A DNA stretch of 64,000 bases, from the NCBI RefSeq assembly GCF_029873635.1, contig NC_080418.1:9934062-9998061 (forward strand), written 5' to 3'. The notes beneath the pieces are model-generated. The model saw only the letters and a program-made list of their open reading frames with translations. It searched no databases and was not told where the DNA came from. This stretch comes from Malania oleifera. Lineage: Eukaryota > Streptophyta > Magnoliopsida > Santalales > Ximeniaceae. Position numbers and translations under genes: made by a program. Shown piece after piece: positions 3,466 through 58,682 of the stretch; the first letter of the stretch is position 1, and every line of letters begins with the position of its first letter.

Positions 3466-4520
3466 ATGATTACGTTAATTGTACGTGACGTAGGAGTGCT
3501 AATAGATTCCTATTGTATTTTCAAAATGGAGCCCAAGGATAATAACTTGGAGAGTGGCTTCGAGGAGACTACGAGTGATGAGTCTCCTTCTGTGCCTCGA
3601 GGGTTGACAAGGCAAGTTATGTGGGAGATCGGGTGGAGTGTTAGGAGACGTGAACACTCTCCTACTACTATAGGGTGTACCATCGAAAGGTTCATAGGTA
3701 TGCACCCTCCGACATTCTCAAGAGGACCCGATCCGATGATAATGGAGGACTGGGTCGAGAAGACCGAGAGGATTCTGGAGGTTCTACACTGCACAGATAA
3801 GCAGAGAATCCTCTACGCTACCTTCCAGCTGTCTGGAGAGGCGAGGCGATGGTGGACTATGGTGCATCTACTGGAGAAGCAAAGATTCGGTCCTATAGAG
3901 ATGATATGGAGCCGTTTCAAGGAAGTGTTCTTTGAGAGATACTTCCTAGTCTCCATACGTGATGTAAAGGAGGATGAGTTCTTTGCTCTGATACAGGGAG
4001 ATATGACGGTGCAAGGGTATGCTGCTTGGTATATAAAGCTATCCTGTTTTGCTCTGTGTTTGATCTTGAACGAGTACGAGAAGACTCGGAGGTTTGAGAA
4101 GGGCATAAGGAAAGACATCCACAGGTTAGTGGGAATGCTTCAGATCCGTGAGTTTTCAATTTTGTGGATAAGGCCACTATGATTGAGACCGACATCCGAG
4201 AGGATGAGGTGGATCAGGAACCGAAGAAGAGGTCAGTAGCTTCTGGTTCTTAGTCTGGATCTCATCAAGGATCATGGAAGAAGAAGAACAAGGGCTCGGG
4301 TTACCGTCAGAATACTAAGTGCTAGAGTTCTCAGGTGAGTCAGTCGGGTGACCATTGTATCAGGTGCCACAGATGGCATAGTGGTGAATGCCAGCCATTT
4401 AGGGGTAACTGCTACAACTGTGGCCAGTTAGGTCACATGGCTCGGGATTGTCATGCACCAAAGAGGGGTATGCCCACTTCGAGTCAGAATCGGGGAAGTA
4501 ATCAGGTATCCCGAGGAACT
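3466..4520 (+). pseudogene. gag remnant of the gypsy element
   Basis: A Retrotrans_gag-type domain lies at about 3.7-4.15 kb (WVEKTERILEVLHCTDKQ, then GEARRWW). It is followed by a CCHC zinc knuckle (CYNCGQLGHMARDC) near 4410-4455. In life this would be the capsid/nucleocapsid polyprotein packaging the element RNA. Part of a broken fossil element. Confidence 0.85.
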
Positions 4521-4559
4521 TATCAGGCGAACACAGCTCCGGCAAGGGTATACTTGCTT

Positions 4560-7500
4560 ACTCCAGCGGATGCTGAGCATGCGGGGAATGTGGTGACAGG
4601 TACTATGATGTTACTTTTAAATAAAGCTGTGATTTTATTTGATTCAGGTGCGACCCACTCTTTTATATCTGCTAATTTTGTAAAATTGTGTGAGGTGGAG
4701 ACCTAAGTCATGAATGAAGAGTTGTCTGTAGCTATATCATCTGGGAGTGTATCATTCTTTAGGAGGATGTTAGAAGACTGCCCAGTGGTAATTCAGGGAA
4801 GACTGCTACTGATGAATCTTGTGGTATACGACATGTCTTGGTTTGATGTCATACTGGGGATGGATTGGTTATCCTCTACTTATGCTGTGATCGACTGTTG
4901 TGGAAAGGTGGTAGTATTCAGACCTCTTAGGGAACGGGAGTACGAGTTTGTAGGATCGTGTGTGCGTTCGACGTCATAGGTTCTATCAATGATACAGGTG
5001 AGGAGGTTACTCTTGGAGGGATGTCAGGGGAACCTAGCTTGCATGAGGGAACCGTCGCGAGATGAGTTGAAGCTTGAGGATATTTGAGTGGTTAACAAGT
5101 TCCTGGATGTGTTTCCTGAAGACTTACCCAGTTTACCTCTGGATCGTAAGGTGGAGTTGTGATGGAGTTGTTGCCTAGTAAGGCACCGATCTCTAAAGTT
5201 CTGTACCGGATGGCTCCAACAAAACTTCAGGAGTTGAAGGAGCAGTTGCAGGAATTACTAGACAAGGGCTTTATCAGACCGAGTGTTTTGCCCTGGGGAG
5301 CTCCAGTTCTGTTTGTGAAGAAGAAGGACGGGTCGATGCGTATGTGCATTGATTATCATGAGATCAACAAGGTGACTATGAAGAATCGTTACCCATTGCC
5401 TCGTATCGATGATCTCTTTGACCAGCTGCAGGGGACTCGGGTCTTTTCAAAGATGGACCTACGATCAGGGTATCATCAGGTGAGGGTTCAATCTGAGGAT
5501 GTTACAAAGACTGCTTTCCAAACCAAATACGACCACTATGAGTTTTTAGTCATGCCTTTTGGGTTAATGAATGCTCCAACAGTGTTCATGGATCCGATAA
5601 ACAAGGTTTTTCATAAGAACCTAGATCAATTTGTAGTGGTATTTATTGATGACATTCTGGTATACTTGAGGAGTTCGGAAAAGCATGGAAACCATCTGAA
5701 GTTGGTGCTATAGATTCAGCGGGAGAGGAAGTTGTATGCCAAGCTAAAGAAGTGTGAGTTTTGGTTGAATTAGGTCGCATTTTTAGGCTATGTGGAGTCT
5801 AAAGGTGGTATCTTAGTTGATCTTAGCAAGATCGAAGCTGTGGTGGACTAGGTGAGACCGAAGAGTGTGCAGGAGGTTCAGAGTTTTCTGGGACTGGCGG
5901 GTTATGATCGTCGGTTCGTGGAGGGATTCTTTAAATTGTCTGGACCTCTGACACGATTGGCCAGGAAGGGGGTGAATTTTGACTGGACCGAGGATTGCGA
6001 GCAGTGTTTCCAGGAGCTGAAATAGCGATTGGTTATTGCTTCGATTTTGATCATTCCTTCAGGGGATGGCAGTTTTGTTATCTATAGTGACGCATCTCTG
6101 AAGGGTTTGGGATGTGTGCTTATGCAACAGGGTAAGGTAATAGCTTATGCTTCTCGACAACTTAAGGAATACGAGAAGAATTACCCTACGCATGATCTGG
6201 AATTGGCTGCTGTAGTCTATGCACTGAAGATCGGGCGACACTACCTGTATGGTGTTTAGTGCGAGATTTTCATTGATCACAAAAGTCTCAGATACTTTTT
6301 CACACAGAAGGAGTTGAACATGAGACAGTGGAGGTGGCTTGAACTGATCAAGGACTACAATTGCACCATTAGCTATCACCCGGGGAAAGCCAATGTGGTG
6401 GCTGATGCATTGAGTCGAAAATCAGAGCGTGCAATAGTATCAGTCGTGGTAGCTCAACATCATATCAGACCGGATCTAGAAAACCTTGGTATAGAGTTGG
6501 TGTCCAATGATCATCAGGCTTTCATTACTAGTTTGGTAATCCACCCGACTTTGTTTGAGCATATTAAAGCCGCGCAGGCTAATGAGGTTTGGAACCAGGC
6601 TGGGGGAGGTGTGTTGAGGTTTGGAACCAGGCTGTGTGTTCCAAATGACAACGAGATCAGAAGGACAATTCTGGAGGAAGCGCATCGTTCTTTGTATATG
6701 GTACATCCGGGTAGTATGAAGATGTATCGGGATTTGTGCGAGACCTTCTGGTGAAGTGGTATGAAAATGGAGATTGTTCAGTTCGTGAAGTAGTGTCTGA
6801 CGTGTCAGAAGGTGAAAGCTAAACATCAGAGGCCGGTAGGGCCGGTACAGCCCTTAGCTATTTTGGAATGGAAATGTGAGTATATTTCCATGGACTTTGT
6901 GACCGGATTGCCGCCAGCACTTCACGGGAAAAATGCCATTTGGGTGATCGTGGACAAGTTGACAAAATCTGCTCACTTTTTACCGATGAATATTAGCTAC
7001 TCTTTGAGTAGGCTAGCACATTTGTACGTGTATGAGATAGTTAGAATGCGCGGGGTACCGGCGTCCATTGTGTCAGATTAAGACCCGAGGTTTACCTCTT
7101 GTTTCTAGAAGAACTTGCAAGAAGCAGTGGGGACGAAACTTACTTTTAGTACAACGTTCCCCCAGACTGATGGACAGTTGGAGAGGACAATACAGATCTT
7201 AGAGGATATGTTACGGGCTTGCGTGTTAGACTTTGGTGGTGGTTGGATGCAGTTTATGCCACTAGTAGAGTTTGCCTATAATAATAGCTTCGAGGCCAGT
7301 ATCGGGATGGGACTGTTCGAGGCTCTGTATGGTCGGAGGTGTCGGTCTCCTTTGTATTGGAATGAGGTTGGTGAACGTTAGGTGTTAGGACCTGAACTTG
7401 TGCAGCAGGTGTCTGAGAAGGTGGGTTTGATCCGAGATAGGATTAGATCGGCTCAGAGTTGGCAAAAGAGTTACACAGATGTTCGCCGCGTGAGTTGGAA

Positions 7501-7923
7501 TTCGAGGTGGGGGGTAAGGTATTTTTGAGGATCGCTCTAATGAAAGGGGTGATGAGATTCGGAAAGAAGGACAAGTTAAGCCCAAGGTATATCAGACCAT
7601 TCGAGGTTCTCAAGCAAGTGAGTCCGGTAGCCTACAGGATTGCACTACCCCCGACCCTCTCGAGGATCCATGATGTATTTCACGTATCCATGTTGAGGAG
7701 GTACGTGTCGGATCCTTCGCATATTATTAGTTACGAAAACTTGGAAATTGGGGATACTTTAGCATATGAGGAAGTACCTGTTCAGATTCTGGACCGTAAA
7801 GTTCAGAAGTTACGTACCAAGTATATACCGTTAGTGAAGGTATTGTTGCAGAATCACGAGGTTGAGGAAGCTTCTTGGGAATTGGAAGCGAAGATACGCC
7901 AGAAGTATCCACAGTTGTTCTGA
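4560..7923 (+). pseudogene. pol remnant of the gypsy element: PR-RT-RH-INT-chromodomain
   Basis: Recognisable parts in order: retropepsin-like protease (LFDSGATHSFIS, about 4.64 kb); reverse transcriptase (about 5.2-5.75 kb) with [27 protein letters not shown] and the catalytic FIDDIL; RNase H (about 6.03-6.4 kb, [15 protein letters not shown], then [15 protein letters not shown]); and integrase (about 6.6-7.4 kb, [22 protein letters not shown]). The 3' end has the [12 protein letters not shown] block and a chromodomain-type carboxy region (about 7.7-7.92 kb). The order RT-RH-INT plus chromodomain places it in the chromovirus branch of Ty3/gypsy. Broken. Confidence 0.9.
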
Positions 7924-8213
7924 GTTGTGGTTTTAATAGTAGAATCAGTGAGTATGTATGTTACCCTACTATTGGATTGGGATAAGTGGTTAGTTGTTGG
8001 GAGTGTGAATTATTGTGAACTCTTGAGATGGTTTATGTATGCAACCACGGTATTCTTCTACCATAAGTGAGGATGTGTATGTATTGTGACGAGGCTTCGA
8101 TGTAAGTAGCCGCCGGTCCTTTCTAGAGTTGAGAGTGTGTTTGGTGGTGTGAATGAGTTCATGAATGAGAAATTACAAATTTCGAGGACGAAATTTTTGT
8201 AAGGAGGGGTGGT

Positions 8214-11200: not shown

Positions 11201-12000
11201 CGTCGAAGAAGCGGTGGCCTTGTCAACGAATCGAATATTTCCAATTTTTTTCCGAACCACTTGGCATTCCTTCGTCGACGATCCTCTGAATTTCGTCGAC
11301 GAGGAGCCTTTAGCCTTCAGCCTTCGTCGATGAATGATGACCTCATCGACGAAGTCTGCACAATTACCTTTTTACCCCTCTCTTTCCAAATATCAAATCC
11401 ATATACCACGGTTCGGGTTCTTACTGGTGTGACGACATCGGTTACTTGATCATGCACACGTGTGTGTGATGAGCACTATACTCGAACTATTTTGTGAAAA
11501 TACTAGAATTGTATTGAACTGTGTATGTTTTATGTCATGATAACACTCATATGCCACACACAGATATAACATGGATCTGCCTTACTGAGAAGTGTCTCAC
11601 CCCTATCATACGTACATGTTTTTCAGGTCCTTCGCGTAACCAGAATTAGCGTCCTTGTGTCAGGAGCGTACTGGCCGGTGTAATGCGGGTAGTACTTGTG
11701 TAAGTACTAGGACTTTATCGGGTTGTCATTTTGGGTTTTGGTTGACACTTGGGTTTATGTATTGTATTATGAAGCTTAGACTCCTTTTGTATAAACTTTG
11801 GTATGGTACAATATATGTATAGAAAGAACAATTTCCGCTGCCTATTTGTCATATATGTGAATGTGTATAGGGTGTACGAAAACCCTACGGGGTCGGACCC
11901 TCATTCATTATAGTGTATCATTGGTGTTTTGTATGATATAGGGGACAGGTTAGGTTACTAATTCACCCCTGGGTCCTATTACCGAGTTCGGGGCGTGACA
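8214..12000 (+). repeat. 3' LTR of the gypsy element, split by a nested solo LTR
   Basis: It starts TGTAAGAACCCG just after a GGAGGGGT polypurine tract and ends GGGCGTGACA. Without the insert it is about 1.77 kb. The U3 (8290-8490) is packed with TCATCGACGA/TCGTCGACGA palindromes ahead of a TATA box (CTATAAATATA, about 8495). A CT-rich start and a GAGGTAAGAC donor-like site (about 8685) follow. The inverted insertion occupies 9411-11425. Confidence 0.88.
9411..11425 (-). mobile_element. Solo LTR of the same gypsy family, inverted and nested
   Basis: On the minus strand it begins TAAGAACCCGAACCG and ends GGGGCGTGACA. It contains the same landmarks as the host LTR in reverse: TCGTCGACGA palindromes (11.15-11.36 kb), a TATA box (GCTATAAATATCC, about 11130-11142) and the GAGAGGCGTCTCACCCC block (about 9820). 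No interior or second LTR is present. Internal short repeats occur: GCGATTACATTGCCAA-type units (10045-10175) and ACGGTAATTAGCCGCCAC units (10295-10430). Target duplications are not clear. About 2.0 kb, slightly longer than the LTR it sits in. Confidence 0.85.
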
Positions 12001-17533: not shown

Positions 17534-18036
17534 TGTTGGAGCAGCTATTGATTTTCATGGGCAGCAGCAGCTAGCCACCAGCCTCCATTGTTGATTTCAC
17601 ACTCGCAAGCACCATTTTTGAAATAATGCAGCCCCATCATATTTGAATCTTGTGGCAGCCAATTGCCTATATAAGGCCATGCATGCTCAACTGTGTAATC
17701 CATCCCAAAGCCAGAAAAATTGAGTGATATATATATATATATATATCCAATTTTGTGTATATCCTGTGAGGATTATTGGTTGTATTTGGGTTTTGGGTTT
17801 GAGAGTGTGAGTTGCTAATATTTTGTATTCTACTATTTTATTTAGTGAATACTGCTGATCCGTCTTCATCCGTGGAGTAGGCACACTGCTTAACCACGTA
17901 AATCTTCTGTGTCTTGTGTGTATCATTTTATTTATTTATTTATTTATTTTTACCATTAATTTCTCGTAATCATATTCAACTTCAAATTTTGATCTTGCTA
18001 GAAATATTATTTATTTTTGGGTCAAATTTTGTAACA
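17534..18036 (+). repeat. 5' LTR of the copia element
   Basis: TG...CA bounded, about 500 bp. It contains a TATATAAGG promoter box (about 17669), a (TA)n run at 17728-17747 and a (TTTA)n run at 17927-17950. About 300 bp is shared with 21695-21996. Confidence 0.7.
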
Positions 18037-21000
18037 AACTGGTTTTAGAGCTATTTTAATTTTTTGATATCTATTTGGAGTTTTTTTTAATTTTCAAAAT
18101 GGCAAAATTTGTTTCAGTTTATGGCGTATTAAAATGCATGTCATTTTAGTCCAACAAGGACTGCAAAAGGCACTATGACCACGAGAAAAATTGCCTGAAG
18201 AAAAAGGAGCCAATTGCAAGGCTCCAACTATGACCATGTCGGCTGCAAAATTGGCAGCCTCGACCGCAACGATCGTTTTGATGAAAATAGTATCAGCTGT
18301 GGAGTTAACAGAAGTAGACAAGAAAGCTCGCAGTACAATTATTCTCAATTTATCAGATAAGGTGTTATGCAAGGTTGTGGAGGAAGACAACGCGTTGAAA
18401 ATGTGGTAAAAGCTCGAGAGTCTCTACATAACGAAGTTTCTCACCAACAAGTTGTATCTTAAATAAAATCTTTACATACTACGGATGAAAGAAGGTATGC
18501 CTATTAAAGAACACATTGATGAATTTAGTTAGGTAATTATGGATCTAAGAAATCTTGAGATTAAAATTGATGATGAAGATCAAATCATTATTTTATTATG
18601 TTTATTGCCCCATTCCTATGAACATTTTGTCACCATTTTGCTTTGTGATAAAGACTCCGTTAGTATGGAAGATGTTAAGACATTTTTAAATTTGCAAGAA
18701 TTAAGGAAAAATGTTTCTAGCAATAACACTTAAGAAATTGGGGACAATCTTATTTGTGAGGGGGAGGAGTCAAAATAAGAGATCTGAAAATAGGGGTTGA
18801 TCTAAATCTAGATCAAAGAAAAATTTTGAATGTTTCTATTGTCAAAAGAAGGGGCACACTATGTGAAATTGTCTTAAACTTAAGAAAAATAATAAATCAA
18901 ATCAAAAGGAAGATAAGGATGAAATTTCTTCCGTTGTTGTCAAAGCTGTAGAAAATAAATCTTCAAATGCTGAATATGTTCTTTCAGTTACCGTTGTTGA
19001 TTTTAGTTAAAAAAATGAGTGGATTCTTGATTCAGGTTGTTCCTATCATATGTGTCCCAATAAAGATTGGTTTACCATATATCAATCAATTAATGGTGGT
19101 ATCGTCTTAGGTAATAATATGACGTATAAAACTGTTTGAATAGGTACAATTCAACTTAAGATATTTGATGGTATTGTAAGGACTTTGACAGATGTTCGGC
19201 ATGTTTCGGAGTTGAAGAAGAATTCTTTAGGTACTCTTGATGCTATCGGTTGTAAGTTTTCAGCTCAAGGTGGAGTACTGAGAGTTTCGAAAGGTGCACT
19301 AATTATGATGAAAGGAAATAGAAGAAATGGTCTTTATTTTTGTAGGGCAATATAGTTTATGACTCTGCTTCAATTTCTTCATCAGTCGACTTAGATTCAG
19401 ACACTATTTGGTTGTGGCCTATGCGCTTGAGTCATATGAATGAGAGGGGCATGACCAAATTGAGTAAATGTGGTTTACTTTGTGGACAAAAGATAGGTAA
19501 AGTTGACTTGTGTGAAAATTGTGTTTTTGGTAAATACTTGAAAATTAAATTTGGTACTGCAGTGTACACAACCAAAGAAACCGTGAATTATATCCATTAT
19601 GATCTTTGGGGTCTTTCACAAGTTCCCTCTCTCAATGGTTCCCTGTATATATTGACTTTTATTGATTATTTTTTCCACAAAGTTTGGATTTATACCTTGA
19701 AAAATAAAAATGATATGTTCGAAAAATTTAAGGAGTTGAAGGTATGATAGAAAATCAGACCGGTAAAAAGGTGAAATGTTTATGGGCTGATAATGATTTA
19801 GAATTCTGTTCAGGAGAATTTAATGAGTTTTGCAAGAGTAAAGGCATCGCTCGATACCGTACAGTTAAGGGTACTCCACAACAAAATGGAGCTGCAGAAT
19901 GCATGAACAGAATTCTTTTGGAGAGAGCACGATGTATGCTCTTTACTGCAGGTCTGCCAAAGAAATTTTGGGCCGAGGCAATCAACACAGTTTGTTATCT
20001 AGTAAATAGGTCTCCATCGACTGCTATTGAATGTAAGACACCTGAGGAGTTATGGTCAGGTAAACCTGCTGATTATTCTTGTTTAAGAATTTTTGGTTGT
20101 CTAGCCTATGCTCATGTTAATGAAGGGAAATTAGAGCCTAGCGCCAAGAAATGCATCTTTCTTGGATACAAACAAGCGATGAAAGGATACATGTTGTGGT
20201 GTCCTAATCCTAAGTCACCCATGTTTCTAATCAGCAGGCATGTCACTTTTGATGAATCTTTTATGCTTCACTAGAAAAAGGACTCTTCCGATACAGGTTA
20301 TAGTGAAAGTGGCAGACATCAAGTGGAATTTCAATTTGATGTTTCAAAGACGATGCTTGAAGCACCAACAAATCAGCCTACTAAGGAGGAGGAGGTCCAA
20401 TATGAAGAAGCACCGCCACCGCAATAGGACAGTATTGTTGTTCGGAGACAGCACAGGCAGATTAAGCTCCCCTAGAGGTATGCTTATGTAGATTTAGCTG
20501 CTCATGCTTTGCCTATGGTAAAATTCATTGAAGAGGATTAGCCTTCCACGTACCGTGCTGCCATTCTAAGCAAATAATCTATTAAATGGATTGTTGTTAT
20601 AACTGAAGAGATCGAGTCTCTTCATCGAAATCAGACATGGGAGCTAGTTAAACTGCCGAAGAGCCAAAAGGCTATTGGTTGCAAATGGGTTTTCAAAAGA
20701 AAAGAAGGAATTCGTAGAGTTGAGGATGTTAGGTACAAGAACGTTTGGTAGTAAAAGACTACAGTCAAAGGAAAGGTGTAGACTTTAATAAAGTTTGCTC
20801 ACTTGTGGTAAAACATACTTTAGTTCGTGTTTTACTTGCTTTAATTGCCTTATATGATCCGGAACTTAAATAGCTCGATGTAAAAACTACTTTTCTTCAT
20901 GGTGAACTTGAAGAATAGATTTACATGCATCAACTTGAAGGTTTTGTTGTCTATGAAAAAGAAGACCATGTTTGCTTGTTGAAAAAATCATTGTATGAAT

Positions 21001-21694: not shown

Positions 21695-21996
21695 CTGCCT
21701 CCATTGTTGATTGCACACTCACAACCACCACTTTTGAAATAATGTAGCCCATCATATTTGAATCTTGTGCCAACCAATGGCCTATATAAGGCCATGCATG
21801 CTCAGCTATGAGATCCATCCCAAAACCAGAAAATTTGAGTTATATATATATATATATATATATGGTTATTGGGTGTATTTGGGTTTTGGGTTCGAGGGTG
21901 TGAACTGCCAATATTTTGTATTCTATTATTTTATTTAGTGAACACTTCTTATCCGTCTTTGCCCATGGAGTAGGTATACTGCCGAACCACATAAAA
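21695..21996 (+). repeat. 3' LTR of the copia element (partial)
   Basis: Aligns with 17580-17905, differing at scattered sites and by a deletion next to the TA run. Both outer parts of the LTR appear to be lost. Confidence 0.7.
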
Positions 21997-39596: not shown

Positions 39597-39760
39597 ACTC
39601 CCCTTTTGGTTTGCAATAGGAATGGAATCAGAGTAGGAATAGAACCAGTATTGAAATGTCATTACTGTGTTTAGTTAGCCACACAAAATTAGTGTTGGAA
39701 TGCAATTTTTATTCCTTTCCCACGTTTGGTATTCCTGGAATAAGGATTGGGATTAGGAAT
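39597..39760. mobile_element. Left end of a MITE of the CCCC-TTTGGTTTGC family
   Basis: CCCCTTTTGGTTTGCAATAGG followed by AATGGAATC-type words mirrors the end at 54520-54576 (TTTCGCAAACCAAACGGGG). It appears to be the host sequence into which the hAT-like element inserted. Its right end was not identified. Confidence 0.5.
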
Positions 39761-40483
39761 GACAAAACGAGTTAACGGGTCGAGTTCGGACTGGTCATAA
39801 ACGGGTCGGAGTTAATCGAGTTCGGGTTTGGGTTGATCCGTTTATAAATGGGCGACTAATATGTAAATCCAAATTCGTCCGTTTAATAAACTGGTTACCC
39901 ATTTAAAAAATATAATTTTTTTTAAAAAAATTTACATAATTTTTTTTTTTTAAAAACACTCCATTTTATTTATTAATATCTAAATAAAAGAAAAGTGTAT
40001 CTGTGGGCCTGTGGCAAGCTTGCCAAGCTGTGATCCTGCCTTAGTTTCGAAATAGGAATAGAATCAAAGTAGGAATAAAATCAGTATTGGAGTGTCGTTA
40101 CTGTGTTTAGTTAGTCACATATAATCAGTGTTGGAATGTAGTTTTTATTCCTTTCCTATGTTTGGTATTCCTAGAATAAGGATTGGGATTAGGGGTGACA
40201 AAATGGGATAACGAGCCGAGTTCAGGTGGATCATAAATGGGTCGGGGTTAATCGTGTTTGGGTTTGGGTTGACCCGTTTAAAAACGAGTGACAACTATGT
40301 AAGCTCAAACTTGCTTGTTTAATAAACGGGTTATCGATTTAAAAATATAATTTGTTTATTTTAAACTTTTTAACATAATTTTTTTTAAAAAAAACACTCC
40401 ATTTTATTTATTAAATATCTAAAGAAAAGTGTATCTGTGGGCCTGTGGCAAGCTCGCCGAGCTATGATCCAGTCCTAGTTTCG
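39615..40483. repeat. Two-copy tandem duplication, unit about 436 bp
   Basis: Copy 1 (39615-40050) and copy 2 (40051-40483) align throughout. Both start AATAGGAAT and share TTACTGTGTTTAGTTAG, the TGACAAAA terminal-repeat start, the ACGGGTC/GGGTTTGGGTTGA block and GTGTATCTGTGGGCCTGTGG. Each ends TAGTTTCGA. Each copy holds the left end of the hAT-like element plus its flank, so the duplication followed insertion. Confidence 0.88.
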
Positions 40484-41789: not shown

Positions 41790-42005
41790 ATTGAGATAGA
41801 ATAAAAAATAAGCCAATTTCTAAAAATGTCACTATGTTACTATTGCAGAATTATTTATTTTAGCAATATTTAATTATATAATTTTAATTTAAGTTGTAAT
41901 TTAAAATTTTGTCATACAATAAATATAGACTATGATGAAATATTTAAAGGAGTTATATTCCAAAAAAACTTTTATCACAAAGTTTAACATATTACAGATA
42001 TGTTG

Positions 42006-42039
42006 TGTGATGACCCAAAAATATATATACGATTAAAGC

Positions 42040-42079
<40 letters not shown>

Positions 42080-42334
42080 TAATAATGGTCATTAAGTTAA
42101 TATCAATACAGAAGTGCTTTCTATAGGATCCTTGATTCTATGTTTGATGCCTAAAAAAGATCTTATCTTAACGAGTGTTTAGAGATCATTGCGGCTCAAT
42201 CGCTCCTTGGAAGTCGGTCTGATTAAAATAGAATTTCATAAGATAAACAGGATAGACACTACTTGTACACGTAAATAAGTACATATACATAAAATAGTAT
42301 TTTGACAGATATGATTTGTAGAAATACATGACAA

Positions 42335-42380
<46 letters not shown>

Positions 42381-42578
42381 GATATCCTATATGGGGCCCA
42401 TATGAGACCCGAAGTCGTGTGGGATTCACATGAGTCCCGGAATTATGTAGGACTCATAAAACCGTGTAAAGACTATTGGAGTTACATAGGACCCACTTAG
42501 GTGTCGAAGTGGTGTGGGGCCCACATGAGTTTTCGAAAGTCAAATTTAATTCTTTAAATACTAAAACATAGCTTAAAG

Positions 42579-42615
<37 letters not shown>

Positions 42616-44400
42616 TTTAATAAAAATTAAAAAAAATAAATTATTTAAAAATTAATTAAAGAGAAGTGGTGGCCCACATGACCTCCATCCTTATCCCATA
42701 CCTAATCCGTGCCTAACTCATCCCATGCCCATTTTTTAATTTAAAAAAATTATAATTTCACCAATCTCCTTACACTTTTACAAATTTTATTTTCTTCCCC
42801 AAAATTTTCCTATGAATAGGAAGCTCTCAACCTTCATTTTTCATAAAAATTTTTAAAGGAAGAGAATGATTAGTGAGTGAAAGAATTAGTGGTGGAGAGA
42901 AAATTTTTGAGTAAGTTATCACTCACCCATTCTTTCCGATCTCATTTCTTAGAGATAGTCATTGTGTTTGTAGCACAAGGTAAAAGAAGATGTAAATAAA
43001 TTTGATTATGTTAGATATTTATTTAAAATTCATAACTGAATTTATTTGTAAGTAAATTTCGATTATGTTAGTTAGTTTCATAAAATTCTCTTGAATTTAT
43101 TTTTATGCATATTTAATTATACTAGTTTTATCTTTAATATACTTGTATTTATTTTTGAGTTAAGAAATGTTCTAAACCCCTCAGGTATTTTACATCATTA
43201 ATTTCTACTCAAGAAAAAAAATTTTAACATGAAAATTGTGTGGCATAAGTTTATTTATACTTTGCATATTTCACGAAAATATAAGTAAAGATTACATGAG
43301 TTGTTTTTTTTTACGTTGCGTATTTCACGAAAATATGAGTAAAAAAGAGATTTTCATGATATTATTTTAATTGTACAAATTATATAATAAAAATATTTTT
43401 AAAACCCCTTATGACAAAAAAAAGTTCAAAATTATAGATGTTCGGTACCGCAACTTAAAGTTTAAACGGATCAGAGTGCACCTACACTATTTACAGACTA
43501 GTTTTATATGGTAGTGGATTTCTCTTGAATGCACACGTAGGTCGGACCAGGGATATGGAAAATCTCACTTAATGATGATGTACGTTAATTTAATTTGGCC
43601 GGCCAGCCACTTAAGTCTAATCGTCGGACCGCACAACACAATCATGAGGGTAAACATGACTTACGATTAACAGGACTAAGAATGATTTTTACAGTATATG
43701 TATATACATATTTAATTACGTGTACAGAGTTATTGATGATTTGAAGGTAATGTGTAAGTTTATATGAACATGACCATTATTATGTCTAAATGATGATCTA
43801 AAGGAAACGTGTAAGGAAATATATTTATATAATTAAAAATTATAATTACAGTTTTTAAAGTTAAAAGTTTAATTAAATAGTTATAGTTTTAAAAGTTAAA
43901 AAGTTAAGTTTAACAGTTATAGTATGTGATTATAAAATTTTACTGTTGTAATTGATGACAAAAGTTTTTATGTAAAAATTTTAAATTTTATTTTATTTTA
44001 AAAGTATTTTTGAAGTTATAGTATTAAATATTATTTTACGAAATTATGAAAGCTTATTTTAGTCATATACTAATAATAATAATAATCTTATTTACTTATT
44101 CAATGTCGTCTCACCCTAATCATTATTTTACATTTTAAATCATTTTGAGGAGCGTACCAGAAATCTGGAATAGTAAGTACATGGACGGGAGTAGAAAGAA
44201 AAGAGTAGAATAAAAATTTAGCATAATACAATTTAGAATACATTTGTGTATTTTAAAATTTTAGAATTTTACATTTTAATAATTGAGACATATATTTGTA
44301 ATAAAGCTAATTAGTGTTCTAGTAATAAAAATGATTTAGATTTATTTGCGTTCGCTAAAAAATTTATATGTAGGAACCCACTCGGATTCGGGTCCTTACA
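42006..44400 (+). repeat. 5' LTR of the WOX-carrying element
   Basis: 2395 bp, TGTGATGACCC...GGTCCTTACA. It carries three (AAT)n arrays (about 42043-42083, 42337-42380, 42580-42613), a TATA-like CCTATGAATAGG (about 42810) and a TGAGGAGCGTACC block near the 3' end. Confidence 0.93.
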
Positions 44401-44563
44401 ATTGGTATCAGAAAATGGGATATAAGTTCTGCATACTCTAGCATATAAATTTTACCAGAACTTAGATATAAAACATGATTTGGGTAGGATTTGATAGTTT
44501 AGAATATTTATTTAGTTTGTTCTACGATTTATTATTTTAAAATAACATTTGATCTTTGTTTAA

Positions 44564-44630
44564 TAATGGATTCTAAAGATAGTAACATTGGAGGAAATGA
44601 GATTAACGTGAAAGCTCCTAAGGACAGGTA
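44564..44630 (+). other. gag-start-like stub
   Basis: ATGGATTCTAAAGATAGTAA with the following codons (MDSKDSNIGGNEI) resembles the gag start of the 2.6-12 kb gypsy element (MEPKDNNLESG). Little else of gag is recognisable, so this marks where an ancestral coding region was replaced. Confidence 0.45.
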
Positions 44631-45442
44631 ACAATCTTATATTCTCTAAAAAAAATGATAGTATTATTGAAGACACGTTAATTAAGTTAAATAAGTTATT
44701 TATATTTGTAGAAACACGTACCCATATTGATGACTCATAATTATTTGTTAGATCATATGCATTAATAATTTAAATTTTTCATATATATAAATATAATAAT
44801 ATAATAATATCCAAGATTTATTTATTTTCGCTGTTATTATTTTGACTAAAAATATAAGAAGTAGCACATTTTACCCTCTTAGGTTTGGAGGTACTACACA
44901 TACAAATAGACATGAATAAACGGTTTATTATGAAATCTAAATTTACTCAAAATTTCTTTGCATGTGCAAGTTGGATATGAATATGTATTTTTACGTTGCA
45001 TATTCAGTTCATATCAAAATATTCAAGCTTAATTTAGGAATATATATTTTAACGAAATCTTTAATTTTAATTTTGTATTAGTTTATAAGGAATTAAATAG
45101 AATTTATATACACATTGTATATTCAATTCTCATCAAGTATCCAAATTTGATTTAGGAGTACAAATTTTGATGGAATCTTTAATTTTTATTTTGTATAAAC
45201 TTATAAAAGTTAATACAACTTAAATTTTACTATATTATAAAAAAAAACTTTATATAGTAAAAAAAAAAATTTCATTAATGAAAGTAATATAAAAATTAAC
45301 TAATCTTCTTCAAATAACTAACCAATGTCAAATCATCGATCGGTCAAACATACCCAACATATATTTGATCTAATAATAATAATAATAATAATAATAAAAT
45401 AATACTAATAATATTCGAATATAAATATATATATATAGCAGT

Positions 45443-45592
45443 AAAAAAAAAACCTTATGGGTGGAAATCATCGGCTATAGCTCACTTACCCCTGAAGTAA
45501 GGTCAGGGCATGAGATTACTTGGGCATAGTGGGGATTCGAACCCACGATCACATGGATGTATGGCCGATTCCTTACCACTAGGCCACCCACC
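45443..45592 (-). mobile_element. tRNA-derived SINE with oligo(T) tail
   Basis: The minus strand has pol III A box TGGCCTAGTGGTAAGG (45586-45571) and B box GGTTCGAATCC (45543-45533) in a tRNA-like head. A short unique body and a run of about ten T (45452-45443) follow. A T tail rather than an A tail is a feature of the Au SINE family of plants. It lies inside the WOX-carrying element and runs opposite to it. Target duplication not clear. Confidence 0.78.
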
Positions 45593-45652
45593 CAAGTGGT
45601 GACTTGAGTATGAAATTAATTATAATTAAAGCATTAATAAAGATGTAGAAAC

Positions 45653-46230
45653 ATGAACAAAACCTTGAGTCCACAAATTTTGCAATACGCGTCGCTCGTT
45701 CAATTTCTGCAGCACGCGTCACTCTCTCTCGATTTTTCTGACACATATTGTTCTCCCTCGATTTTTGAAAAATGTGTCACTCGAGGCATGCGTCGCTCTC
45801 TCATGATTTTCATGACACATATCGTTCTCTCTCGACTTTTACAAAACGCGTCACTCAATATCGGTGACTCGCGTCGCTCTCAATTCTCGCGGCACACGTC
45901 GCTCTTCTTTGATTTTTGCAAAATGCATTGTTCGATATTTATGACACGCGTCGCTCTCTCTCGATTCTCGCTGCACACGTCGCTCTCCCTCAATTTTTGC
46001 AAAACACATCGCTCTCTCTCGATTTTCGTGACACACATCGTTCTCCCTCAATTTTTGCAAAACACGTTGCTTGACATTGGTGACACACATTTCTCTCTCT
46101 CGATTGTCGCGACACACGTCGCTTTCCCTCAATTTTTACAAAACTTGTTGCGCGATATCCGTGACACGCGTCGCTCTCTCTTGATTCTTGCGACACATGT
46201 CACTCTCTCTTGATTTTCACAACACGCGGC
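45653..46230 (+). repeat. Tandem array upstream of the WOX frame, 81-bp higher-order period
   Basis: Degenerate repeats are built from words such as CACGCGTCGCTCTCTCTCG, ATTTTTGCAAAACAC and GATATCCGTGACAC. In the right half three subunits recur in fixed order every 81 bp. The strand is T- and CT-rich. An uninterrupted frame (186 codons) crosses it only because the period is a multiple of three; I do not regard it as a protein. It ends about 10 bp before the TATA box. Confidence 0.85.
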
Positions 46231-46239
46231 CATTTCCCT

Positions 46240-46247
46240 ATAAAAAA
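46240..46247 (+). promoter_or_regulatory. TATA box in front of the WOX frame
   Basis: CTATAAAAAAGG lies about 120 bp before an ATG at 46364 and 180 bp before the homeodomain. A short leader (TAAGCATCACAACTT...) follows. It is not part of the LTR promoter, so the cargo seems to have its own promoter, perhaps taken along with the gene. Confidence 0.6.
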
Positions 46248-46447
46248 GGTATGCCCTCCTTGACTCTAAGCATCACAACTTTCTATTATCTTGAATAACC
46301 ACATTTCGGTTTGTAAAGATTAGCTCTACCCAACTTTTCTCTTGGTTGTCTCATTACTCGAAAATGTTGCCAAATCAACCAACTCCTTAAGTTGCTGAGG
46401 GCAGCACTAGATCGCCAATTCAAAGATGGAAAGCCAGTAAGGCACAG

Positions 46448-47095
46448 ATGGAGATTTTAGAGGAGGTCTTCTGCAATAGTCAAGGGGAACTCCCTTCTGC
46501 GGAGCTGGATATCTTGCTTGCAGCACTACTCCGACGATATGGTCCAATCGAGTCGAGAAATATACGATTTTGGTTTGAAAACCGTAGGCGTAGGCAGGGA
46601 TCAGTTGAAGAAGCCACTATCTTAACTACTGCCCCACCAACTATCCATCTTACCTCCTCTGCCACTACCGCCCCGAGCAGTGCTCTTGCCATTTTTCCAA
46701 CCACTTGTCCCTTCATCCCTATCGACAATATTCCGTTTATGAAACTTACAACTAATATCACACCAATGAGCCATACCCTTTACAATGGCAGTATCGCAGT
46801 CACCACACTAAGGGTTTCAGATAATGTTGGCCTACTCCACCATTGTAAAGAGATTCAATACGCGTTAAGACACATGTATGGGCCACCGATGACTCGTTAT
46901 GATCATCCCCACCAAAGGTCACAAGGGGAAGAGGGCAGCTCTTTGTCCCTCGCCGAACAAACAAGTGTTCTCTCCCTTTTTCCGACCCAAGTTGGCAACA
47001 TTACAAGAGATCAATTCCGCCAAGAAAGAACCCAAACAGTTAGTAGTGACACCGCTAGCACTTCGATAAATTTTGACGTTGATCTAAGGCTCTAA
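46448..47095 (+). CDS. WUSCHEL-related homeobox (WOX) protein carried by an LTR element
   Basis: The frame is 215 codons from the first Met. The homeodomain starts slightly upstream in the same frame, at RWKASKAQ (from 46424), and continues ILEEVF...LPSAELDILLAALLRRYGPIE...NIRFWFENRRRR to about residue 49. Spacing between helices fits WOX homeodomains, with the RYG-x-IE word and N-x-x-x-WF-x-NRR helix 3. The residue equivalent to homeodomain position 50 is Glu, where WOX proteins have Gln. Further on are a WUS-box-like SVLSLFP (173-179) and an acidic carboxy end FDVDLRL (209-215), similar to WUS-clade repressor motifs. WOX proteins are nuclear transcription factors of stem-cell and organ development. 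No intron interrupts the homeodomain. The frame stops 250 bp before the polypurine tract. The native start is uncertain; expression is unknown. Confidence 0.82.
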   Translation: MEILEEVFCNSQGELPSAELDILLAALLRRYGPIESRNIRFWFENRRRRQGSVEEATILTTAPPTIHLTSSATTAPSSALAIFPTTCPFIPIDNIPFMKLTTNITPMSHTLYNGSIAVTTLRVSDNVGLLHHCKEIQYALRHMYGPPMTRYDHPHQRSQGEEGSSLSLAEQTSVLSLFPTQVGNITRDQFRQERTQTVSSDTASTSINFDVDLRL

Positions 47096-47357
47096 AGGCT
47101 AGATTTCGTTTCATTATATATATATAATTATCTTTTTCCACATCTTCTGAATTTTTTTTCCATTTCAATCCCTATTAGACTGACGATTCACACTTTAGTT
47201 CCCAAAATAAAATATTTCGCCAAATTGACCATCAATCTATTTAAAGACTTAATCAAATCGTTCATCAATTTACTCTTTCAAATAGCACAACCAATTATAC
47301 AATACTCATTTTAAATTAGCAAATTTCGAGGATGAAATTTTTATAAGGAGGGGAGAA

Positions 47358-47667
47358 TGTAATGACCCAAAAATATATATACGATTAAAGCATAATAATA
47401 ATAATAAAATAATAAAAATGGTCATTAAGTTAATATCAATACATAAGTGCTTTCTATAGGATCCTTGATTCCATGTTTGATGCCTAAGAAATACCTTGTC
47501 TTAGCAAGTGCTTCGAGACCATTGTGGCTTAGTCGCTCCCTAGAGATCGGCCTGGTCAAAATGAAATTTCATAAGATAAATAGGATTGACACTGTTTGTA
47601 CACGTAAATAAGTACATGTACATAAAATAGTGTTTTGATAGACATAATTTGTAGAAATACATGGTAA

Positions 47668-47704
<37 letters not shown>

Positions 47705-49595
47705 TAGGTATCCTATATGGGGCTCACATGAGTCCCGAAGTCGTGTGAGATTCACATGAGTTCCGAAGTTATGTAGGGCTTATAAAATCGTGTAAAGACT
47801 ATTGGAGTTACGTAGGACCTACTTGGGTTTCAAAGTTGTGTGGGGCCCACAAGACCATATGGGGCCCATATGAGTTTTCGAGAGTTGAATTTAATTCTTT
47901 AAATACTAAAACATGGCTTAAAGATAATAATAATAATAATAATAATAATTTAATAAAAATTAAAAAAAAAAATTAATTAAAAATTAATTAAAGGGAAGTG
48001 GTGACAAGCACTCTCACATGACTTCCATCCCTATCCCATACCTAACTCATGCCTAACTCATCCCATGCCCATTTTTAATTTAAAAAAAAATTAATTTTAC
48101 CCCTCTCCTTACACTTTTACAAATTCTATTTTCTTCCCCAAAATTTTCCTATAAATAGAAAGCTCTCAACCTTTATTTTTCATAAAAATTTTTAAAGGAA
48201 GAGAAGGATTAGTGAGTGAAAGAATTAGTGGCGGAGAGAATTTTTAAGTTCTCACTCACTCACTCTTTCCGATCTCATTTATTAGATATAGTTATTGTGT
48301 TCGTAGCACAAGGTAAAAGAAGAGGTAAGTAAATTTGATTATGTTAGATTTTTATTTAAAATTCATAACCGAATTTATTTGTAAGTAAATTTCGATTATG
48401 TTAGTTTCATAAAATTCTCTTGAGTTTATTTTTACGCATATTTAATTATACTAGTTTTATCTTTAATATACTTGTATTTATTTTTGAGTTAATAAATATT
48501 CCAAACCCCTCGGATATTTTACATCATTAATTTCTGCTTAAGAAAATATTTTTTAACACGAAAATTGTGTGCCATGAGTTTATTTATATGTTGCATATTT
48601 CACGAAAATATGAGTAAAAATTACTTGAGTTATTTTTTTTTACGTTACGTATTTCATGAAAATATGAATAAAAATGAGATTTTCATGATATTATTTTAAT
48701 TGTTCAAATTATATAATAAAAATATTTTTAAAACCCCTTATGACAAAAAAAGTTCAAAGTTACAAATGTTCGGTACCGCAGCTTAAAGTTTAAACAGATC
48801 AAAGTGCACCCACACTATTTACAGATTAGTTTTATATGATAGTAGATTTCTCCTGAGTGCACACCTGGGTCAGACCAGGGTTTAATAGGGAAAATCTTAC
48901 TTAATGATGATGTACGTTGATTTAGTTTGGTTGGCCAGCCAGTTAAGTTCAGTCTTCGGACCGTACAATCCAGTCATGGGGGTAAACATGACTTACGATT
49001 ATTAGGCTTAAGAGTGATTTTTACAGTATATATATATAATTAAAAATTATAATTATAGTTTTTAAAGTTAAATGTTTAAATTAATAGTTATAGTTTTAAA
49101 AGTTAAAAAGTTTAGTTTAATATATATGATCATAAAATTTTATTGCTGTAGTTGATGACAAAAGTTTTTATGCAAAAATTTTAAAATTTAAATTTATTTT
49201 AAAAGTATTTTTGAAGTTATAGTATTAAATATTATTTTATAAAATTATGAAAGCTCATTTTAGTCATACACTAATAATAATCTTATTTACTTACTGAGCG
49301 TCGTCTCACCCCAATCATTATTTTACATTTCAAATCATTTTGAGGAGCGTACCAGAAATCTAGAGTAGGAAGTGCATGAGCGGGAGTAGAAATAGTGGAG
49401 TAGAATAAAAATTTAGTATAATACAATTTAGAATACATTTGTGTATTTTAAAATTTTAGAATTTTGCATTTTAATAATTGAGACATATATTTGTAATAAA
49501 GCTAATTAGTGCTCTGATAATAAAAATGATTTAGATTTATTTGCATCCGCTGAAAAATTTATATGTAGGAATCCATTCGGATTCTGGTCCTTACA
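47358..49595 (+). repeat. 3' LTR of the WOX-carrying element
   Basis: 2238 bp, TGTAATGACCC...GGTCCTTACA, colinear with 42006-44400. It is shorter mainly through shorter AAT arrays (47672-47703, 47925-47948) and a block of about 130 bp absent near 49030. Confidence 0.93.
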
Positions 49596-49600
49596 TGTTG

Positions 49601-56794: not shown

Positions 56795-58410
56795 CTATGT
56801 ACCCCGCCGGAGATCGATGACAAGCACGCTTATGTTGTCGGTACTCCGCCGGGCGAGAGCCAGCCTCGTTAGAAGCATTGAAGCGTCGGAGCATGCCTTG
56901 TCGGAGACTTCACCGGACGCCTCGTTGCCCGTGGACGGCGGGGGCGGCGGAGCCTTCCCGCGTAAGCACATCCGCGCAACTCCACAAGCCATCTCGTTCG
57001 ACACCACGTCCCACAGGCCGTCGCTCGCCAAAATCAAGCACTCGTCCTCTGCCGTTCGGTCTTTGATCGTTACCTCCGGCTCGCAGCTAACGTACGGTTT
57101 CAGGTAGTTGTCGCCTGACAGAAGGAAGAAAAGATGATCGTAAGAACATCGCGGAATCGCTCGAGCATACAAGAAAATTACACATGTTAGATCTGATCCT
57201 TACCGATGGCCCTGGACATGGCCAGAACTCCGAGAACCCGCGCCCCATCCCAGTATATTACTCTACCCCCGGCTCCTTGGATCCGCTGGAGTTCGTCCGG
57301 TCGATCCGGCTGCAAAATAGAAACAAAAAATGATTCACTTTTTAAAATTGACTCAACTGAACATGATTTTAGTTTATCAAGCACCTAATGCCCTAATTTC
57401 TAGGTTGAAAAATTGAAGATTTCACGCTTTTTCAACAGTACTGTTGCATCCAGCAAAATTATATTTCTATCCTTGCAAACGATGCTAGTTGAAATCTTTT
57501 CAACCGTTCGAACGGAAGTGCTTTCTGCGGAGCGAAGTAGCTAACTAACCTTATGATCGGACGAGAGAGGAACAGCTTTGCCATTGCGACACAGCACGGC
57601 GCGAGAATCGCCACAGTTTGCAACGAGAATCTTTTCGGGTGTAACGATCGCCACAACGGCCGTAGATCCAACCGCATCGCACTCTGGCGATTGAAGCTCA
57701 CATCGACAAGTAGCGCCCAACACAGCTAATTCATTCCACGCAGTCGCCTCCTTATCCATGCGAGAGAAGCTCCGCCGCATCGCCTCCTTCCACTCTTCCA
57801 GCGATTCACTGTTCTCCAACTCTTCCTTCACCAGCTCATGCAACCGATCTCTACATTTCATCGCCACCTACAGATCAAAAGTCGGAAAACTCAAATCATG
57901 CCCTAAAAAACAAAAAATGGAACTGCGACACGAACTCATGTAAGAAACTCAGAATCAGACTCCTACATGTGAGCATCCGTGACCGTCGTAGACACCGTAA
58001 TAATGCATATCGGTACTTGAACCCTGCCCGGAGACGCACAAAGACGGGTGAGTGGCCACTGCGTCCTCCATCTCTCTCCTTCTGCCACAGATGGACACTA
58101 CGCCGAACTTCGGTAACTCGTACGACGACTCCGCGCCCACTTGAACCGTTGACGGAGACGAGCTTAGACTCGAAACCGAGCAGGACTCCTTTTCCGAGTC
58201 CGATGCAAACCTCTCCGTAGTGTTTTCGCACACTCGAGACGGCGGAGTAACATCCAATCTCCGACGTTTCTGTTCGCTTCCATCCCCGGCGTCGACGAAC
58301 CTGAACCGTCGCACATCCATTCTCCGGCGCCTCGCCGTCCGCGAACTCGGTTCGCAGGGAGAGGACCCCGCCTCGCTCTTGCCCACCACTCCACAGCAGA
58401 TCTCCGCCAT
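56795..58410 (-). CDS. Clade A protein phosphatase 2C, AHG3/HAI type (4 exons, 395 aa)
   Basis: Mg/Mn-dependent Ser/Thr phosphatase that blocks abscisic acid signalling by dephosphorylating SnRK2 kinases until an ABA-bound PYR/PYL receptor inhibits it; nucleus and cytosol. Coding exons on the minus strand: 58410-57967, 57867-57550, 57309-57204 and 57114-56795. Introns are GT-AG and phases join into 395 codons plus stop, close to AHG3 (about 399). The start MAEICC fits the family (MAEIC); an in-frame Met ten codons upstream is less likely. Motifs: [10 protein letters not shown]; metal-binding DGHG (142-145); GDSRAV; Trp274 in [16 protein letters not shown], the receptor 'Trp lock'; DGLWD (321-325); TDN (381-383). 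A basic segment [13 protein letters not shown] near residue 30 may be a nuclear signal. Family resemblance is split between AHG3 (amino end) and HAI (SCEPEVTI). Appears intact. Confidence 0.96.
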
Positions 58411-58682
58411 CGCCCGATCGAACCGCGCCACAAAGCCCACGTAAAGTTAATTACCTGCTAGGAATCCATCCTCAAAATGAAACGAAACGAAACGAAATGA
58501 AAGAACCTCTTCTGCTCGCATCATGACCTTTAAAACCAAATTCGGAGCGTGGTTTGCACGGGCAGCTGCCCGTCACCATCGCGGGCAGAGGGCGGGCCTG
58601 ACTTCCGTGACGCTATGCTCCTGCGCCTAATTGAGCCCATCTCGACCGTTGATCTGCACACTTCTCATCTGTCATGATCAAA

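Follow-up and report, generated by a model that had tools for sequence, protein, structure and literature searches.

A window of 64,000 nucleotides from Malania oleifera (NCBI RefSeq assembly GCF_029873635.1, contig NC_080418.1, positions 9,934,062 to 9,998,061 of the forward strand) contains, at positions 42006-49595 of the window, one long terminal repeat (LTR) retrotransposon insertion, bounded by an LTR pair, a target site duplication (TSD), a primer binding site (PBS) and a polypurine tract (PPT). This element, hereafter the WOX element, probably represents an old and decayed non-autonomous insertion related to gypsy elements, in which a frame resembling the plant stem-cell regulator WUSCHEL, together with other sequence, has replaced gag-pol.

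The element and its WUSCHEL-like frame

The boundaries of the element are as follows.

42001-42005: target site duplication TGTTG, left copy
42006-44400, plus strand: 5′ LTR, 2395 bp
44403-44412, plus strand: primer binding site TGGTATCAGA, starting two bases past the 5′ LTR
47345-47357, plus strand: polypurine tract AAGGAGGGGAGAA, abutting the 3′ LTR
47358-49595, plus strand: 3′ LTR, 2238 bp
49596-49600: target site duplication TGTTG, right copy

The original prediction, made from the sequence letters, had described paired LTRs, a perfect TGTTG duplication, a primer site and a polypurine tract, and all of these were borne out by the alignment and the coordinates. As is diagnostic of LTR retrotransposons, the LTRs are direct repeats with TG...CA ends and a target duplication, with the PBS behind the 5′ LTR and the PPT ahead of the 3′ LTR. 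The two TSD copies match, and there is a single PBS and a single PPT, which indicates one element. The primer binding site TGGTATCAGA is presumably of the initiator tRNA-Met type. The two LTRs share 2006 of 2206 aligned bases (90.9%; Kimura two-parameter distance, K2P, 0.098) and differ by 151 transitions, 49 transversions and 15 gap runs, several within (TAA)n tracts; a TATA-like box is degenerate in the 5′ LTR (42809), but not so in the 3′ LTR (48148). At 0.7e-8 to 1.3e-8 substitutions per site and year, the LTR divergence would put the insertion at roughly 4-7 million years ago, and further back if the rates were slower. Just upstream of the element, at 39605-40340, lie two copies of a 300-bp repeat, 436 bp apart and 82% alike.

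The cargo lies in the 3′ part of the interior and comprises the following parts.

46238-46246, plus strand: TATA-like CTATAAAAA, upstream of the WOX frame
46364-46390, plus strand: in-frame ATG, closed by a stop eight codons on; probably the N-terminus of the WOX frame in disabled form
46391-47095, plus strand: WOX (WUSCHEL-like) frame, 234 codons, sense relative to the element and just before the 3′ LTR
46421-46594, plus strand: homeodomain, residues 11-68 (Pfam PF00046, PDB, Foldseek)
46967-46984, plus strand: WUS-box-like VLSLFP, residues 193-198
47078-47092, plus strand: C-terminal EAR-like VDLRL, last five residues

An open forward frame of at least 234 codons was found in none of 2000 first-order Markov shuffles of 46240-47110, in which the longest frame had 211 codons and the mean was 84. 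Pfam recognized the homeodomain PF00046 with an E-value of 4.5e-6 (26.8 bits against a cut-off of 22.9), and the best sequence matches in the PDB were WUSCHEL (E 4.1e-8, 36.6 bits) and STENOFOLIA (4.3e-7, 33.3 bits), followed by ZHX2 (0.095, 15.8 bits). A fold model of the homeodomain only (pLDDT 75) has three predicted helices; among its 174 PDB matches in Foldseek, WUSCHEL chains hold ranks 1-5 and STENOFOLIA rank 6, the best E-value being 4e-3 with no match under 0.001. The model of the full-length protein was poor (pLDDT 36.6) and was not used. The Pfam match, the PDB sequence matches and the fold ranking all point to a homeodomain of WOX type. The sense-strand WOX frame with a homeodomain, as originally predicted, could therefore be confirmed by a Pfam score above the cut-off and by WUSCHEL as the best PDB match, and the SVLSLFP and DVDLRL end attributed to it are both present.

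The motif TLxLFP is described as common to the whole WUS/WOX1-7 group, while two features are described for WUS proteins alone, an LELxL-type motif at the end and a homeodomain longer by one residue (PMC2584047). The homeodomain aligns to WUSCHEL without a gap and to STENOFOLIA with a gap of one residue, and accordingly has the additional residue of WUS. VLSLFP differs from TLxLFP in its first residue; VDLRL fits the EAR-like pattern [LVI]x[LVI]x[LVI] given in PMC9968055, but not LELxL, and a second match to the EAR-like pattern, LDILL at residue 39, falls within the homeodomain. When residues 76-234 were shuffled 200000 times, a WUS-box-like motif appeared in 231 shuffles, a terminal EAR-like motif in 4639 and both in 3. 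The figure of 3/200000 is optimistic, because the pattern used, [TSV]LxLFP, is TLxLFP widened after VLSLFP was known. Judged by these sequence features, the frame would most likely derive, with much change, from a WUS gene or a near relative.

Interior of the element and its relation to Ty3/gypsy

Besides the WOX frame, the following features could be placed in the interior, which spans 44401-47357.

44566-44631, plus strand: short ATG frame, 21 codons, no Pfam match
45533-45586, minus strand: tRNA-like box A (45576-45586) and box B (45533-45543)
45695-46225: minisatellite array of ~530 bp, units of ~29, 58, 74, 81 and 139 bp
47313-47353, plus strand: stretch homologous to the tail (8170-8209) of a Ty3/gypsy element (blastn, 92.7% over 41 columns, E 1e-9)

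Forty-nine stop-to-stop frames of 35 amino acids or more overlap the interior; 12 of them were scanned with Pfam, and these 12 showed neither gag nor pol domains. The homeodomain was the one match above the cut-off, and a match to OpgC_C (E 0.02), from the minisatellite frame, fell short of it. A tblastx comparison of the interior with the remaining window gave, among its best 20 matches, nothing but the 3′ tail below E 0.1. The earlier statement that the LTRs enclose no recognisable pol holds as far as these 12 frames and the tblastx comparison reach.

The 3′ tail links the WOX element to a Ty3/gypsy element at 3466-8210, whose frames match Pfam gag, protease, reverse transcriptase (RT), RNase H and integrase. 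The two elements share the same tail before the 3′ LTR (the 41 columns listed above, which stop four bases short of the 3′ LTR of the WOX element), whereas the Ty3/gypsy element carries decayed gag-pol and the LTR of the WOX element is unmatched in the window. This LTR has no other match at E 1e-3 among the blastn matches listed, and neither the LTR nor the WOX stretch has a second match within the 64-kb window among the matches listed; blastn was run within the window with the low-complexity filter off, the best 30 matches were considered, and AT-rich matches down to E 7e-6 were taken as low complexity. The Ty3/gypsy superfamily is defined by pol with integrase after RT and RNase H, and no pol was found in the scanned frames of the WOX element or by tblastx. 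Because only its 3′ tail is gypsy-like, we call it, on sequence grounds, a putative non-autonomous element related to gypsy rather than a member of Ty3/gypsy. Its structure fits the LARD-type layout of long LTRs and a long interior without gag-pol, as far as the one copy seen can represent a type that is also defined by several copies mobilised in trans. The Ty3/gypsy element at 3466-8210 is itself decayed, with frames broken by stops, and is flanked by repeats at 2660-2959 and 11460-11759 that are 92% alike. A second copy of the gypsy-type tail lies on the reverse strand at 15-54, by the window edge (83.7%, E 7e-6).

As for the other interior features, the short frame at 44566-44631 might be a vestige of a gag start, which is a guess. 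The piece with box A and box B, judged by eye to extend over ~45450-45605, resembles a tRNA-derived short interspersed nuclear element (SINE) or a tRNA relic; ARAGORN called no tRNA at 45533-45586, and Rfam gave no match at E 0.1 or better over 41-51 kb. An imperfect duplication of ~110 bp can be seen by eye at 44985-45215 in the AT-rich interior. A 190-codon frame at 45641-46213 was considered as a coding sequence and rejected, being the minisatellite read through.

Origin of the frame and state of this copy

The homeodomain of the WOX frame is identical to ten WOX homeodomains at 18-22 of 59-62 residues (29.5-37.3%), while seven WUS-clade homeodomains are 61.7-78.3% identical among themselves (median 68.9%, 21 pairs). 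Two of the ten sequences came from the PDB and the other eight, including five of the seven WUS-clade members, are provisional, so that these identities are to be taken as a lead. Neutral drift was simulated (n=1500) from the present frame, with stops counted and indels ignored: at ~41% homeodomain identity, 234 codons stayed stop-free in 0.2% of runs, at 56% in 1.1% and at 28% in 0.13%, and in reading these endpoints a share of the distance to WUS belongs to the side of the known WOX genes. Since drift so rarely leaves the frame free of stops, and since the LTRs (K2P 0.098) permit only ~5% change since insertion, the divergence probably came about for the most part before the insertion and under constraint, in lineages that kept the frame open. 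Such a lineage could be that of a host gene evolving fast or that of the mobile element.

A coherent sequence of events may be proposed on this basis. Long before the insertion, a chimeric transcript or a template switch would have brought a WOX frame from a host WUS/WOX gene into the element. While it diverged, whether in the mobile lineage or in a donor gene that evolved fast, the frame would have been kept open, and it would have entered this site together with the element, which could have been mobilised with proteins borrowed from an autonomous gypsy relative. The product of any intact copies might be a DNA-binding repressor, with a homeodomain and with WUS-box-like and EAR-like motifs of the kind that recruits TOPLESS corepressors. 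The original prediction took the intron-free homeodomain as a sign of capture through RNA. This argument fails, because 18 sunflower WOX genes are described as equally free of an intron there (PMC9968055), and the missing homeodomain intron is no evidence for RNA capture. The intron-free run to the C-terminus suits passage through RNA better, yet any RNA cycle of the element would remove introns.

Several observations weigh against capture followed by joint insertion. Just one copy of the WOX-bearing element was seen in the 64-kb window, which leaves the family spreading a stem-cell regulator, as the original prediction had it, a conjecture. The TATA-like CTATAAAAA ahead of the frame could mean that genomic DNA rather than RNA was captured. 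Strict TLxLFP and LELxL are absent from the frame. The helix 3 sequence FYWFQNH, described as a mark of the WUS clade (PMC9968055), is RFWFENR here, and for this reason the frame is called WUS-like and no clade membership is claimed for it. A WOX tree of ten homeodomains did not place the query, whose end branch reached 7.78 changes per column. The openness of the frame is likewise no evidence of present function, because neutral decay since the insertion, with indels uncounted, leaves 234 codons stop-free in 37% of 20000 simulations. Finally, a duplication shorter than 9 bp around the WOX stretch would be compatible with the repeat test given below.

The first alternative is an origin in two steps, in which an ordinary LTR element inserted first and lost its interior by deletion, and a WOX gene or retrogene landed later in this copy without ever being mobile with the LTRs. 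The single copy seen, the patchy interior with its tRNA-like piece, minisatellite and AT-rich stretches, and the TATA-like site ahead of the frame would all suit such a history. However, no direct repeat of at least 9 bp is common to 45600-46364 and 47095-47357 (1.47 shared 9-mers are expected from shuffles) and no run of at least seven A occurs in 46990-47357, so that there is no sign of a later retrogene insertion; moreover, the PBS and PPT ends are intact, and LTR-borne WOX genes with TSDs have been reported in Vigna (PMC10714607). We consider the two-step origin unlikely, though it deserves to be weighed before any other alternative.

A narrower form of the favoured reading makes the WOX frame a permanent accessory gene in an LTR family that is shared between plants and includes the Vigna elements, kept for the benefit of the element, for instance through action in meristem cells or repression of other genes. 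The very divergent homeodomain in an open frame and the repressor-like motifs in WUS order are consistent with it, as are the LTR-borne WOX genes reported independently from two Vigna species (PMC10714607) and the description of some extra open reading frames (ORFs) as shared by most copies of a family and by distant species (PMC11963269). On the other hand, the Vigna elements are compared by description, no second copy was seen in the window, and the present copy is disabled; we regard this narrower form as doubtful. In its most far-reaching version, which we offer as a speculation with rather little chance of being right, a WUS-derived repressor would belong to a long-lived plant LTR lineage as an accessory gene of the lineage itself. 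Selection acting on the element would keep this gene open, perhaps for action in the germ-line founders of the shoot meristem, and the Vigna burst would represent a recent outbreak of the lineage.

A host WOX gene in use that merely lies between LTRs of unrelated insertions, for which the 234-codon open frame with its own TATA-like site might speak, is highly improbable: the match of the TSD copies, with one PBS and one PPT between them, shows a single element, the in-frame ATG ahead of the frame soon runs into a stop, and the homeodomain is far from canonical WOX.

Whatever its history, this copy, judging from its sequence, is most likely inactive and without a full protein. Downstream of the preceding in-frame stop (46292), one in-frame ATG (46364) lies before the frame and meets a TAA at 46388, and the next in-frame ATG (46448) is already inside the homeodomain. 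With its sole upstream start codon in frame running into a stop so soon, the copy is probably dead.

Elsewhere in the window, a Ty1/copia-like fragment at 19346-20274, with GAG-pre-integrase and SH3_retrovirus domains, lies between partial repeats at 17633-17902 and 21748-21995. On the minus strand, 56798-57199 contains a piece of a protein phosphatase 2C (Pfam E 7.5e-17), and 57958-58446, judged by eye, resembles the N-terminus belonging to this piece, with no Pfam match.

Comparison with known LTR elements

Searches for relatives were also made in collections that are not meant for plant genomes. The WOX frame gave one unconfirmed pattern match among viral contigs, the start of the LTR gave none there, a plasmid search gave none, and 17 pattern matches in a genome-contig collection yielded no confirmed one; these outcomes have no bearing on plants. 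In the literature, among the matches listed and as far as titles and the beginnings of abstracts tell, no LTR-borne WOX gene was noticed besides those of Vigna. Copia and Gypsy elements have been described near, and not around, WOX genes of Brassica (PMC6482515) and cotton (PMC5501002).

The original prediction also held that the known plan of the family has no place for a developmental transcription factor. This overlooks both the extra ORFs described before the 3′ LTR of plant elements (PMC11963269) and the LTR-borne WOX genes of Vigna (PMC10714607). In Retand, Grande and RIRE2 elements, additional ORFs are described downstream of pol and ahead of the 3′ LTR; the WOX element resembles them in having such an ORF close to its 3′ LTR, a protein that putatively binds DNA, and tandem repeats in the same region (PMC11963269). 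Their extra ORFs, however, are antisense (mostly TRP28 in Retand), whereas the WOX frame is sense and no pol was found with it. The Retand lineage is recognized by Retand RT and antisense ORFs, mostly TRP28; here no RT was found, and the ORF is sense and WOX.

The capture of host genes by LTR elements is itself well established, having been reviewed (PMC13317346) and surveyed in rice and sorghum (PMC3726574). In the accessible text of the review the words WUSCHEL, WOX and homeobox are absent, and in the main text of the survey, as far as accessible, WUSCHEL and homeobox are absent, WOX not having been looked for. The maize element Bs1, a gene-capturing LTR element, holds host gene sequence inside an LTR element, as is the case here. 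What sets the present case apart from such elements is its cargo, a developmental transcription factor in which homeodomain, WUS-box-like part and EAR-like part follow in order. Captured gene pieces are common in LTR elements, but within the literature covered it is unusual for a stem-cell factor to be carried with its DNA-binding domain and with repressor-like motifs arranged as in the family.

The closest parallel is provided by Vigna marina and V. riukiuensis, in which amplified WOX genes are reported, in an account of a meeting, to lie mostly between identical LTRs with TSDs (PMC10714607), with more than 1000 LTR-borne copies given for V. riukiuensis (PMC10714607, citing preprint 10.1101/2022.03.28.486085). 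By that description alone, the likeness is that of a WOX gene between LTRs with target duplications. The mostly identical Vigna LTRs and the more than 1000 copies in V. riukiuensis indicate a recent burst, whereas here one copy was seen, with LTRs 9% apart and a disabled reading start. The WOX element is a striking example of a kind already reported and is not wholly new. If the Vigna elements and this one share a single origin, a developmental regulator would be part of the regular gene content of retrotransposons. In any case, WOX gene counts in new plant genomes may include copies that belong to such elements.

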